From the NCBI GenBank assembly GCA_018667995.1, contig JABIQT010000073.1, positions 1 through 5,095 on the forward strand: a stretch of DNA of 5,095 nucleotides, in the 5' to 3' direction. A program made the position numbers and the translations under genes. Shown here in pieces: positions 458 to 4,256 of the stretch. Source of the DNA: Candidatus Latescibacterota bacterium (GTDB lineage: Bacteria > JAAXHH01 > JABIQT01). Below the pieces are notes generated by a model, which worked only from the letters and a program-made list of their open reading frames with translations, was not told the origin of the DNA and ran no database searches. The first letter of the stretch is position 1. Each line of letters opens with the position of its first letter.

Positions 458-2686
458 TCATGCAGCGAAGATGTCTACCATCTTGTTTGCAATCACACGA
501 CTGCTCTTCTTACGATTTCCACCCCTGATGAATGCATTCTTGATTCGGGTGTAACTTGCGTCATCTTCAAGACCTTCCATGGAATCGGTTTCCACCTTAA
601 GATTACCTTTGATGAGGAAGTACTCGTCATATGCACTTTCAAGGGTGACAAAGTTCTTGACCTTATAGTCTTCGCACATCTGTTGCCATCGTCGGTCGTC
701 TACATTCTTACCGATGTAGTATCGAAGATTATTGAGGCTTTTGCTATCGCATAGACGGATACCAACAAGGTTGGTCCCAGTGCGGTCACGGAGCATGCTC
801 AAGAGACACATGGTCTCGCCATAATATCCATTAGCGGCATCCCGTGTATCGTAATTCTTCTTGGTCTTCTGATCAGCGATGAACGTATGACCATATCCAC
901 GGAGCATCGAGTGACCTTCGCCGTCAGTGAGGAATACGGTGTTGACGATCTGGACGCCATTTCGATTCTGGAATTCAGGAACCTGCGTCATGGCGCATGT
1001 GATCGCCTCATTCAGAGGAGTGCATCCAAGGTGCAGGCAATTCGGAATTTCGCTGTTGTAGTAATAATCACCACGGTCAACGATCTTCCAGAGATTCGTA
1101 AGAGCCGTTTCATACTCCCGATTATTCATTCGACTGCTCAGGAAGTTATAGAGCGAGAGGGTATGGGGTTCGATGTCCGAATCCTTTTGATTGTCCCACT
1201 GGGGTCGGTCTTCACGACTGTCAATAAAATCTTGATAATCCTTTGACGACCGTCGGCCAGTAAAGGGGCAATACTCGTTCGAGGAGAATGCATAGACTTC
1301 GAATGGAATATTCACCTTGCGGCAGAATTCCACCAATACCAGCAATTGCTCGACGGTATCCTTCAGGATGCCACTCATGGAGGAGGACCAATCAAGGTAC
1401 ATAATCATTCCATGGTTCTTACCATCAGAGTGAACTTCGTTCTTGAGGAAGATATCTTCGCTCCAACGGTAATCAATCATTCGCACGGTATCAAGGACAC
1501 CGGTCTTAGCGACTTCGGTCTTCTTATCGGCATCAGCAGCCTGTTTCATTTGGAACTGCTGAACCATCTGGGCAACGATGCCCTTGATGGAGTTGCGATA
1601 GGTGTGGAGGCGAAGATTGCTTTGGGTCGTGTTTTCTTCTATTTGTGCTTTTCCCTCATCATTGCGATCTTGCAAGAAAGCCTTTTTGCTTTCCACCCAA
1701 AGATCAGCGATTTTTGAGAATTCAACAACAATATTTTCAAGTTTCGGTTTTGGAAGCGTCACATAGGTGCGGGCTGCAGCCTTATCGTCCCGAAAGTCGC
1801 TCACTGCACCTTCAAAGGCGCGTTGAGTCATGCCGGGAATGGCATTGCCACCGTTGGCGTATGCTTCATAAGACAAATCGTTTCCCTGCTCGTCGTCGTC
1901 GGGTTCACCATCTTGGCTATCAGCAGACTCACCATCATCGGTATCGTCTTCCATGCTGGCGCCAGAATCTTCACCAGACTCGTCGCCGGCACTGCCGGAA
2001 CCCTGTCCCTGCTCAGAATCTTCGTCGCTATCAGCAGCAACACCGGCAACGGCTTCGCCATCTTCGGCTTCGCCGGATTCTTGCTGTTTTTGCTCTTCTT
2101 TTTCTTGCTGATCCTCAAATAGATCCTGTGCAAGTGTCATAACCTCTTCAAAGGTCTTTGTTTCCGCCATACGAGTAATATACTGCTGCTCTTCGGCGGT
2201 GAATGGAACGTCCATTTGGCAGTGAATGCCCAACTTGAATTGAAGATTCAATCGGTCCACCAGTGGCAGATCCGTGATAGTTTTACCATTCAATTCAAAC
2301 AAGTCCCGATCCTCAAGTGACTTATATGCTTTCGCAAAGTCACGCCTGAGGCCGGGAAATTTATCTTTGATCATGCGCTCGATACGAGCGTCTTCGACCA
2401 CATTGAGATACATGTGGCGCATGGGCGCATTACGGCCTTCGCCAACGAATTCCTGCCACCCATCAGCAGGCGTATGCAGGGCGTGGGACACTTCATGCCC
2501 AACAAGCATATCGTACATGGCGTGATCCATGTCCTGCCAGACGGGCAAACATAGAACGCGATTCTTAGTATCGAAATACGCCGTTTGGGCCTCCGCACTA
2601 TGCTGTACTGAGATGTCCTCCTGCGCTATAGCGCGGGCGAGGATGTCTTTGGAAGTGGTTCGGACTGGTGATATACCCTGATTCAT
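458..2686 (-). CDS. cobT: CobT-like protein: HExxH metallopeptidase-like domain plus VWA domain (742 aa)
   Basis: Large cytoplasmic protein in three parts. (1) Residues 1-190 hold a metallopeptidase-like domain with HEVSH (64-68, HExxH) in the context GHEVSHALHTP. About 30 residues later comes NVVEDARIER (95-104), whose Glu98/Asp99 could supply the third zinc ligand. (2) Residues about 191-270 form a low-complexity acidic linker rich in Asp, Glu, Ser, Gly and Gln. (3) The C-terminal half is a VWA domain with a complete MIDAS: DWSSS (432-436, DxSxS), Thr556 in GCTPLNEA, and Asp588 in FLTDGEG. The family is the phage 'CobT' or putative metallopeptidase/VWA group, partnered with a CobS/MoxR AAA+ ATPase, which lies divergently at 3051. 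Bacterial CobT is a cobaltochelatase subunit, but the HExxH domain argues for a proteolytic or remodelling role here; that is inference. The start at 2686 is the only good one before the HExxH motif. It has no Shine-Dalgarno sequence, and a promoter -10 lies just upstream, suggesting a leaderless message. Length is normal for phage members and there is no sign of damage. Confidence 0.88.
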   Translation of the reverse strand: MNQGISPVRTTSKDILARAIAQEDISVQHSAEAQTAYFDTKNRVLCLPVWQDMDHAMYDMLVGHEVSHALHTPADGWQEFVGEGRNAPMRHMYLNVVEDARIERMIKDKFPGLRRDFAKAYKSLEDRDLFELNGKTITDLPLVDRLNLQFKLGIHCQMDVPFTAEEQQYITRMAETKTFEEVMTLAQDLFEDQQEKEEQKQQESGEAEDGEAVAGVAADSDEDSEQGQGSGSAGDESGEDSGASMEDDTDDGESADSQDGEPDDDEQGNDLSYEAYANGGNAIPGMTQRAFEGAVSDFRDDKAAARTYVTLPKPKLENIVVEFSKIADLWVESKKAFLQDRNDEGKAQIEENTTQSNLRLHTYRNSIKGIVAQMVQQFQMKQAADADKKTEVAKTGVLDTVRMIDYRWSEDIFLKNEVHSDGKNHGMIMYLDWSSSMSGILKDTVEQLLVLVEFCRKVNIPFEVYAFSSNEYCPFTGRRSSKDYQDFIDSREDRPQWDNQKDSDIEPHTLSLYNFLSSRMNNREYETALTNLWKIVDRGDYYYNSEIPNCLHLGCTPLNEAITCAMTQVPEFQNRNGVQIVNTVFLTDGEGHSMLRGYGHTFIADQKTKKNYDTRDAANGYYGETMCLLSMLRDRTGTNLVGIRLCDSKSLNNLRYYIGKNVDDRRWQQMCEDYKVKNFVTLESAYDEYFLIKGNLKVETDSMEGLEDDASYTRIKNAFIRGGNRKKSSRVIANKMVDIFAA

Positions 2687-2707
2687 ACGTATATTTTACC
2701 ATAAATC
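2687..2707 (-). promoter_or_regulatory. promoter of the CobT-like gene (extended -10)
   Basis: The minus strand reads TTTATGGTAAAATATAC just before the ATG. TG-G-TAAAAT (2701-2693) fits an extended -10 element of the sigma-70 type. No good -35 is visible at 17 bp (TATCGG), as is often the case for extended -10 promoters. The predicted transcription start, about seven bases after the hexamer, falls on or next to the start codon at 2686. The same 21-base sequence, with two differences, forms the opposing promoter at 2973-2993. Confidence 0.55.
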
Positions 2708-2721
2708 CACCCATTCCGATA

Positions 2722-2732
2722 GGGTACTACCC
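2722..2732. repeat. short palindrome GGGTA-C-TACCC, possible operator
   Basis: Perfect 5-bp arms around one central base, about 36-46 bp upstream of the predicted cobT transcription start. GGGTACTA recurs in the same orientation at 2871-2878 (GGGTACTACC against GGGTACTATC). A regulator-binding role is possible, but only two sites are seen and the second is not palindromic. Confidence 0.3.
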
Positions 2733-2764
2733 GATAAAAATGAAGTTTTTTTCTATAAGGCGTA

Positions 2765-2808
2765 ACCCCTTATCAATACTGCATTTAGCCAGTATGCTTG
2801 GCGGGGGT
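2765..2808. repeat. imperfect inverted repeat in the divergent region
   Basis: ATACTG (2776-2781) pairs with CAGTAT (2790-2795) around an 8-base loop. Outside it, ACCCC (around 2765-2769) faces GGGGT (2804-2808). There is no T run on either side, so it is not an intrinsic terminator. It could be a protein-binding site or part of a replication or regulatory structure. Confidence 0.35.
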
Positions 2809-2825
2809 AAAAATGGGGTATAGAG

Positions 2826-2845
2826 TTATCCACAATTTATCCCCA
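2826..2845 (+). promoter_or_regulatory. DnaA-box-like pair
   Basis: TTATCCACA at 2826-2834 is a perfect match to the strong bacterial DnaA box. TTATCCCCA at 2837-2845 differs at one base and lies 11 bp further on the same strand, about one helical turn. This could bind host DnaA for replication initiation or control of the divergent promoters. Two sites are too few to call an origin. Confidence 0.4.
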
Positions 2846-2919
2846 ATTGGCAGATGTTAGGGTTTTGTTCGGGTACTATCACGGGTGCCTCGTAAGTCCG
2901 GTAATGGCAGGGGTTTACG

Positions 2920-2944
2920 AAAAATGTGAAAAAAAGGTGAAAAA
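2920..2944 (+). promoter_or_regulatory. three phased A-tracts (curved DNA / UP-element-like)
   Basis: Runs of 5, 7 and 5 adenines at 2920-2924, 2929-2935 and 2940-2944 have centres at 2922, 2932 and 2942, an exact 10-bp phase. Part of it is a GTGAAAAA direct repeat 11 bp apart. Phased A-tracts bend DNA. The block lies just upstream of the cobS -35 (about -50 to -74 from the predicted start), where curvature or an UP element would raise promoter activity. Confidence 0.5.
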
Positions 2945-2958
2945 GTCCCTTAAGTGGG

Positions 2959-2993
2959 TTCAAATTGGTGCTGATTTATGGTACAATATACAT
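2959..2993 (+). promoter_or_regulatory. promoter of the CobS-like gene
   Basis: TTCAAA (2959-2964; 4 of 6 matches to TTGACA), a 17-base spacer, and TACAAT (2982-2987) with an extended TG-G in front (2979-2981) make a good sigma-70 type promoter. The predicted start is near 2994, giving a leader of about 57 bases. The stretch 2973-2993 matches the opposing cobT promoter in 19 of 21 positions. Confidence 0.6.
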
Positions 2994-3040
2994 TCACAAG
3001 AAGGCGATTTCCGCCCCTTAATCAGAATTAGACTTTCCTT

Positions 3041-3045
3041 CGGAG
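3041..3045 (+). promoter_or_regulatory. ribosome binding site of the CobS-like gene
   Basis: CGGAG lies five bases before the ATG at 3051. It supports this start over the far-upstream in-frame ATG at 2847, which would place the promoter inside the coding region. Confidence 0.7.
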
Positions 3046-3050
3046 TTAGT

Positions 3051-4256
3051 ATGACACTCAAAAACAGACAACAACAATTCATCGACGCCTTGGCAGCAGC
3101 AGGCGCCACCAGCCCAGTCACAAGACAGGACCTGGTCGCCGCGTGTGAAAGCACCGGCATCTATTCCTGCCCGCCATCGTGGATCACGCAGGACTCGACC
3201 CGCAAAGCCGGTCGTGGTCTATATGATCTGCCCGAACTCGACACCGCTTCTCCGAAGGAAGTGGCCCCCGCTCCCGCTCCTGCCCAGGCCTGCTCAAAAG
3301 CGCCTGTGCAGGGTGCGGTCGAGCAAGTATCATCTGGTGCCGTTGCCAACATGGCAATGGGCATGACTGGTGGCGAACGCGCCACGCTCATTCCGCCCAC
3401 GTTCAACGGTTACGTTGCGTGGGGACACTTCTCCGATGTTGAGAAGATCGTCCGTTCGCGTCAATTCTACCCGATCTATGTGACTGGTCTCTCCGGCAAC
3501 GGTAAGACCCTCATGGTGGAGCAGGTGTGTGCCAAACTCAAGCGGGAATGTTTCCGCGTCAATGTCACACGCCAGACCGATGAGGATGATTTGCTCGGTG
3601 GATTCCGCCTTGTCAATGGTCAGACCGTTTGGGTCGATGGACCAGTGGTCACGGCGATGAAGTCTGGCGGCGTGCTGCTGCTTGATGAGATCGACCTTGG
3701 GTCGGCCAACCTCATGTGCCTCCAGCCCGTGCTGGAAGGTAGAGGTGTCTTCCTCAAGAAGATCAGCCAATGGGTTACGCCTGCGCCTGGTTTCACTGTG
3801 TTTGCCACAGCGAACACCAAGGGCAAGGGTAGCGACGATGGCCGCTTCGTTGGCACTGGCATCATGAATGAAGCCATGCTTGACCGATTCCCCGTGACGA
3901 TGGAACAGCCCTACCCTACCCGTGGCACTGAGAAGAAGATTCTCTCCAAGGCTGGATTGACTGATGCAGACTTCACGGACCATCTGACCAAGTGGGCAGA
4001 GATCATCCGCAAGTCCTTCTATGAGGGTGCTGTGGATGAGATCGTTTCCACGCGCCGCCTGGTGGATATCGTCAAGGCGTACTCTATCTTCACCGACAAG
4101 TCCAAGGCAATTGCCATGTGTCTTGCCCGGTTCGATGATGACACTAAAGAGGCTTTCATGAGCCTCTATGGTAAGGTGGATGCGGACACTGACATGGAAG
4201 CACCCACCGAGGCCGCGGCCACTGAAGCCGACGGAGAAAACAAATGTCCCTTTTGA
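3051..4256 (+). CDS. cobS: CobS-like / MoxR-type AAA+ ATPase (401 aa)
   Basis: Cytoplasmic AAA+ ATPase. Residues 1-62 look like a small winged-helix-type adaptor (TRQDLVAACES, then PPSWITQDSTRKAGRGLYDLP), typical of phage CobS-like proteins. Residues about 67-95 are an Ala/Pro-rich linker. The ATPase core has Walker A GLSGNGKT (146-153), Walker B VLLLDEID (208-215), sensor 1 in FATANT (Asn255), a likely arginine finger in LDRF (Arg279), and a sensor-2-like STRR (333-336). The C-terminus is acidic. All catalytic residues are intact. The bacterial homologue is the ATPase subunit of cobaltochelatase working with CobT. Here the partner is the divergent VWA/HExxH protein, and no CobN is in view, so a remodelling or chaperone role on that partner is as likely. 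The start at 3051 is chosen for its CGGAG site, its position downstream of the promoter, and the family-like N-terminus. The 68 residues that could be read upstream look non-coding. The gene overlaps the next one slightly. Confidence 0.92.
   Translation: MTLKNRQQQFIDALAAAGATSPVTRQDLVAACESTGIYSCPPSWITQDSTRKAGRGLYDLPELDTASPKEVAPAPAPAQACSKAPVQGAVEQVSSGAVANMAMGMTGGERATLIPPTFNGYVAWGHFSDVEKIVRSRQFYPIYVTGLSGNGKTLMVEQVCAKLKRECFRVNVTRQTDEDDLLGGFRLVNGQTVWVDGPVVTAMKSGGVLLLDEIDLGSANLMCLQPVLEGRGVFLKKISQWVTPAPGFTVFATANTKGKGSDDGRFVGTGIMNEAMLDRFPVTMEQPYPTRGTEKKILSKAGLTDADFTDHLTKWAEIIRKSFYEGAVDEIVSTRRLVDIVKAYSIFTDKSKAIAMCLARFDDDTKEAFMSLYGKVDADTDMEAPTEAAATEADGENKCPF

Follow-up and report, generated by a model that had tools for sequence, protein, structure and literature searches.

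We examined the junction between a cobT-like and a cobS-like gene in a stretch of 5,095 nucleotides (hereafter the window), and found at its edges a pair of outward-facing, predicted promoter arms. The pair recurs in 18 phages, each time where cobT and cobS diverge, and within many of them the two arms are matched to each other. This supports the "duplicated promoter" put forward in a sequence-only reading of the window. The pair probably goes back to an old inverted duplication of a promoter, the two copies of which have been kept alike by recombination on either side of a shared control block. We suggest more tentatively that it may be self-homogenising and invertible, the recombining arms being the outward promoters of two partner genes: the promoters would stay matched, and the regulatory or origin block could flip without loss of expression.

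The promoter pair of the window

Within a 6-Mb metagenome bin, the window forms a single short contig (C817); compared with phage records by megablast, it gave no match. In G000, searched for the host of the bin, SBP_bac_10, PEP-CTERM families and 16S rRNA were not found, the SBP_bac_10 and PEP-CTERM searches being uninformative (no match in any control). The two genes are separated by a 364-bp gap, inside which both promoter arms flank a control block (Table 1). Ahead of its VWA-type motif, the cobT-like protein has an HExxH-type stretch (GHEVSHALHT) that is invariant, and it is possibly a metallopeptidase-VWA fusion, a reading that agrees with the name "peptidase" of its PHROG.

Table 1 Features of the window discussed in the text (promoter, -35 and leader entries are predictions)
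Feature	Position	Strand	Remarks
cobT-like gene, PHROG 459 "peptidase"	458..2686	-	Conserved HExxH near N terminus; DxSxS as in VWA domain
cobT-side promoter arm GATTTATGGTAAAATATACGT	2687..2707	-	TG 2701-2700; -10 TAAAAT 2698-2693; cobT ATG starts at 2686 = predicted +1
29-bp imperfect palindrome, copy 1 CGTAACCCCTTATCAATACTGCATTTAGC	2761..2789	+	Position weight matrix
DnaA box TTATCCACA, exact	2826..2834	+	
Second DnaA-like box TTATCCCCA	2837..2845	+	11 bp downstream of the first
29-bp imperfect palindrome, copy 2 CGTAAACCCCTGCCATTACCGGACTTACG	2891..2919	-	Position weight matrix
-35 of cobS-side promoter, weak (TTCAAA)	2959..2964	+	17-nt spacer
cobS-side promoter arm GATTTATGGTACAATATACAT	2973..2993	+	TG 2979-2980; -10 TACAAT 2982-2987; predicted +1 near 2994
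Predicted cobS leader, 57-nt	2994..3050	+	Small 5' stem-loop (GGCG/CGCC); Shine-Dalgarno GGAG 3042-3045
cobS-like AAA ATPase gene, PHROG 249	3051..4256	+	Pfam AAA_5 and CbbQ_C

The sequence-only reading had described a 21-base motif directed outward on both flanks, and the two arms are indeed identical at 19 of 21 bases. They were the sole matches in the window to the 19-base GATTTATGGTANAATATAC with at most three mismatches (none in 200 dinucleotide shuffles), and to a repeat finder they were the inverted repeat with the longest match in this region (19 nt, 95 %, with 265 nt between the copies). The weaker similarity that had been reported further upstream (AATGGGTG / AATTGGTG with a 2-base gap) is also present. 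Matching thus covers the core and about 10 bases, and no further: beyond this upstream stretch, the arms of the window resemble each other no more than arms drawn from different phages do, and over the 54 nt upstream of the core their own score of 8 ranks fifth of 15. Most of the 19/21 identity is the extended -10 core and the ATAC behind it, i.e. the consensus of the whole family.

As in sigma-70 extended -10 promoters, TGN directly precedes a TANAAT -10 hexamer at both sites of the window and in most arms of its relatives, and TTGC-type -35 elements occur in many relatives, the -35 being weak in many arms. Both sites are predicted to act as extended -10 promoters of the sigma-70 type (TGGTANAAT). 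What sets the family apart from such promoters is that its two copies form an inverted repeat, with a match of up to 70 bp, and are conserved as a pair. A T4 late promoter was also considered and rejected, its -10 element TATAAATA being in neither arm. No description of the promoter pair was found in the literature searched, coverage of which was partial. Nested within the arms lies a second, inner inverted repeat, TACTACCCGATAAAAA / TTTTGTTCGGGTACTA (81 %, positions 2725-2740 and 2863-2878), that resembles a degenerate TATCGGAC site.

In 14 of 15 phages (L041 differs), an in-frame cobT ATG lies 6-8 nt after the -10 hexamer, i.e. at the predicted +1 to +3, so that the cobT mRNA is probably leaderless. 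Further in-frame cobT start codons exist upstream in some of these phages and would fall inside or before the promoter. The cI mRNA of phage lambda is a named case of a leaderless mRNA (PMC9031893); it resembles cobT in that the start codon coincides with the transcription start or lies no more than about two bases from it, as predicted here, whereas the cobT-like gene encodes a peptidase/VWA protein and no repressor, and its leaderlessness is a prediction. The cobT-like gene, with this conserved and probably leaderless start, is a widespread phage gene. On the other side, cobS leaders measure 30-64 nt and mostly open with a stem-loop; over the first 28 nt, mean z was -2.46 there and 0.09 on the cobT side. 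Most relatives have a strong hairpin. That of the window is weak, its full 60-nt leader folding no better than shuffles and the first 28 nt reaching z -2.1.

Matching of the two arms within phages

Relatives were retrieved by searching viral and genome contigs with CobS and CobT, which gave 15 distinct loci, window included, all with divergent cobT/cobS genes. Three further loci came from a search of viral contigs with the 29-bp element alone, bringing the total to 18 distinct phages. On each side, all 15 loci have an extended -10 promoter or a sequence closely resembling one. A wide scan of viral contigs with a CobT alignment yielded almost exclusively same-direction loci, and the equivalent scan of genome contigs gave L302. 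In more distant viral loci, cobT and cobS mostly run in the same direction, whereas here they diverge with a control region in between. The relatives were placed among T4-like phages because of their hallmark proteins (large terminase, gp46-like SbcC and, by inspection, family B DNA polymerase). They share homologous CobS and "peptidase" proteins with cyanobacterial T4-like phages, in whose core cobS is listed (PMC3037559). In all five long records (G001, G002, G003, G004 and G007), the junction lies within about 2-8 kb of a contig end, which may be either a true end of the genome or a break in the assembly. The 157-kb G001 may be a complete genome, as some 161 bp are directly repeated at its termini (start of L487 and end of L494).

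Within-phage matching was scored over the 54 nt ending upstream of the core. With 15 loci, the score was 17.6 between arms of the same phage and 8.0 between arms from different phages (0 of 20,000 permutations); when all 18 loci were considered, it was 16.5 against 8.0 outside the core (0 of 50,000 permutations). Orthologous arms, i.e. those on the same side in different phages, reached 8.35 (cobT-arm to cobT-arm) and 8.31 (cobS-arm to cobS-arm); own arms were closer to each other than to any orthologous arm in five phages (L024, L031, L041, L021 and L022). Outside the core, 10 of the 18 phages exceeded the 99th percentile of shuffles and 8 did not. Past the -10, over the next 14 nt, the effect was weaker, the observed value being reached by 30 of 20,000 permutations. 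The -10 hexamer itself was identical in 78 % of own pairs vs 35 % of cross pairs, and even odd hexamers were shared by both arms (TAGCTT in L509, TACAGT in L032). Matching was 60-70 bp long in L031 and L041, and in L032 and L023 the matched stretch takes in the cobT start codon and neighbouring bases, which places an in-frame ATG within the cobS leader. The window stands at the weak end of this range. The argument that an extended -10 promoter alone would not need identity on both flanks holds for relatives such as L031, L024, L041 and L044 (about 30-70 bp matched), but in the window the identity is mostly the family consensus.

The control block and its orientation

A 29-bp imperfect palindrome occurs in one to three copies in each of 15 control regions; first regular expressions found nothing clear, and a position weight matrix worked. 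With a leave-one-out model, the top match of each left-out phage still fell inside the control region. Within the records of 118-157 kb the element is unique to the cobT/cobS control region, the next background matches coming within about 5 and 10 bits in L025 and L040. In viral contigs, its strict form matched six stretches, all six at divergent cobT/cobS junctions, and the element can be used to find this phage group in metagenomes. Exact TATCGGAC sites were counted 16 times in 13 of 18 regions (shuffles 0.22), the window having none. Another palindrome, CTGACAACATAGTGTCAG, recurs in the control regions of L031 and L042, never in shuffles, and looks like another operator. The 29-bp element, the DnaA boxes and the TATCGGAC sites most likely regulate both promoters jointly, and co-timing of cobT and cobS by the paired promoters is plausible.

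The block could also be a phage replication origin, at which DnaA boxes and iteron-like 29-bp elements would load replication, activated by the outward promoters. This is rather unlikely, although it could coexist with recombination between the arms. It would fit the 16 copies of TTATCCACA in the 18 regions (shuffle mean 0.12), the paired boxes spaced 11 bp apart in the window, L024, L025, L031 and L040, and the confinement of the 29-bp element to the control region of the long records. Against it, the 16 copies are found in 9 of the 18 regions, leaving 9 without DnaA boxes, and cumulative GC skew tracks gene strand with no clear switch at the junction.

The orientation of the block differs between phages. 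Aligned end to end, the control region of the window scored 59.5 with that of L021 in reverse complement and 22.5 forward, and the block interiors 47.5 vs 19 (z 15); likewise, L042 aligned reversed with L031 (52). With the promoters removed, the window, L024 and L025 were reversed relative to L021, L042 and L302 relative to L031, and L506 relative to L041. The clear pairs form two consistent orientation groups, a few weak pairs being near ties. The DnaA boxes point in one direction in the window, L024, L025 and L031 and in the opposite one in L021 and L302. In the protein tree, reversed phages do not form one clade; the number of inversions is uncertain because backbone support is low (20-43 %). 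Both phages sampled twice (L025/L026 and L504/L508) had identical junctions, with no within-phage flip seen. Inversion between the arms would be the simplest account of the opposite blocks, as far as a comparison between phages can tell.

Origin of the matching

The favoured explanation runs as follows. Two outward host sigma-70-type extended -10 promoters would edge the compact control region of a T4-like phage, the cobT-side one initiating the cobT transcript at the ATG or no more than about two bases away (hence a leaderless mRNA) and the cobS-side one producing a cobS mRNA whose 57-nt leader contains a Shine-Dalgarno site. Both arms would descend from a single inverted duplication. Gene conversion between them would homogenise the two copies, and crossing over would invert the intervening block, both promoters staying functional; the block, with its 29-bp palindromic element, DnaA boxes and TATCGGAC sites, would co-regulate the two. 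The junction may thus be a naturally occurring example of two interacting proteins whose expression stays matched through DNA exchange between their promoters.

The main rival is operator co-evolution: both arms would bind the same phage- or host-encoded regulator of shifting specificity, and selection would keep them alike with no exchange of DNA. The arms do serve partner genes, a locus-specific palindrome is present, and within-phage matching spans the spacer between -35 and -10. A regulator would nevertheless not readily account for matching over 60-70 bp, nor for matching that crosses the cobT start codon into the cobS leader, where the roles of the copies differ; the arm sequence does not recur in a set of other promoters of the same phage, and the reversed blocks are left unexplained. 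We consider it unlikely as the explanation, though it could act alongside recombination. That the arms are two independent, ordinary extended -10 promoters, alike through selection for a strong core, is less likely still. The window taken singly would suit it, since its arms match over the core region only and that core is common to the whole family, but the matching outside the core in 10 of the 18 phages and the odd hexamers shared within phages already disfavour it for the family.

Least probable of all is a phage-specific promoter class serving many genes and co-timing a regulon, which the sequence-only reading had envisaged and which whole-record scans largely refute. In its favour, the motif extends beyond the -10 hexamer and has a few additional, weaker copies (G004:104484 and G007:9561). 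However, TTTATGGTANAATATA with at most one mismatch had no other occurrence in the 6-Mb bin, and in the long records the zero-mismatch motif lies almost only at the cobT/cobS junction, three of these records each having one further copy. Absence of the motif elsewhere was part of the refuting condition set in the sequence-only reading, and on that part the class fails. When each 44-nt arm was scanned against the five long records, the opposite arm was the best other match for most arms, weaker third copies following in L031 and L040; in L025 the opposite arm was no better than background genome-wide.

Recombination between the arms, as favoured here, has parallels in known systems. Invertible promoter switches consist of a DNA block flanked by inverted repeats and present in either orientation. 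The block studied here likewise lies between inverted repeats and is found in either orientation, between different genomes only. It differs in that the promoters themselves form the repeats, and both genes would stay on after a flip; moreover, no dedicated recombinase was seen in the window and no mixed orientation within one phage. In phage T4, imperfect inverted repeats are corrected by template switching, which would similarly make two inverted copies identical, but the copies here are about 265 nt apart.

Of the third copies, that at G007:9561 precedes the gene of a 75-aa protein and has DnaA-like boxes upstream. The one at G004:104484 precedes the gene of a PEP-CTERM-tailed protein, with an ATG again right after the -10. 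This gene (L478; G004:104457, minus strand) ends in a PEP-CTERM-like tail, VPAPGAIALMGIAGISATRRRR, and its ATG lies 6 nt after the -10 of the third copy. L302 sits in a Phycisphaerae MAG, which, together with the tail of the L478 protein, hints at planctomycete hosts.
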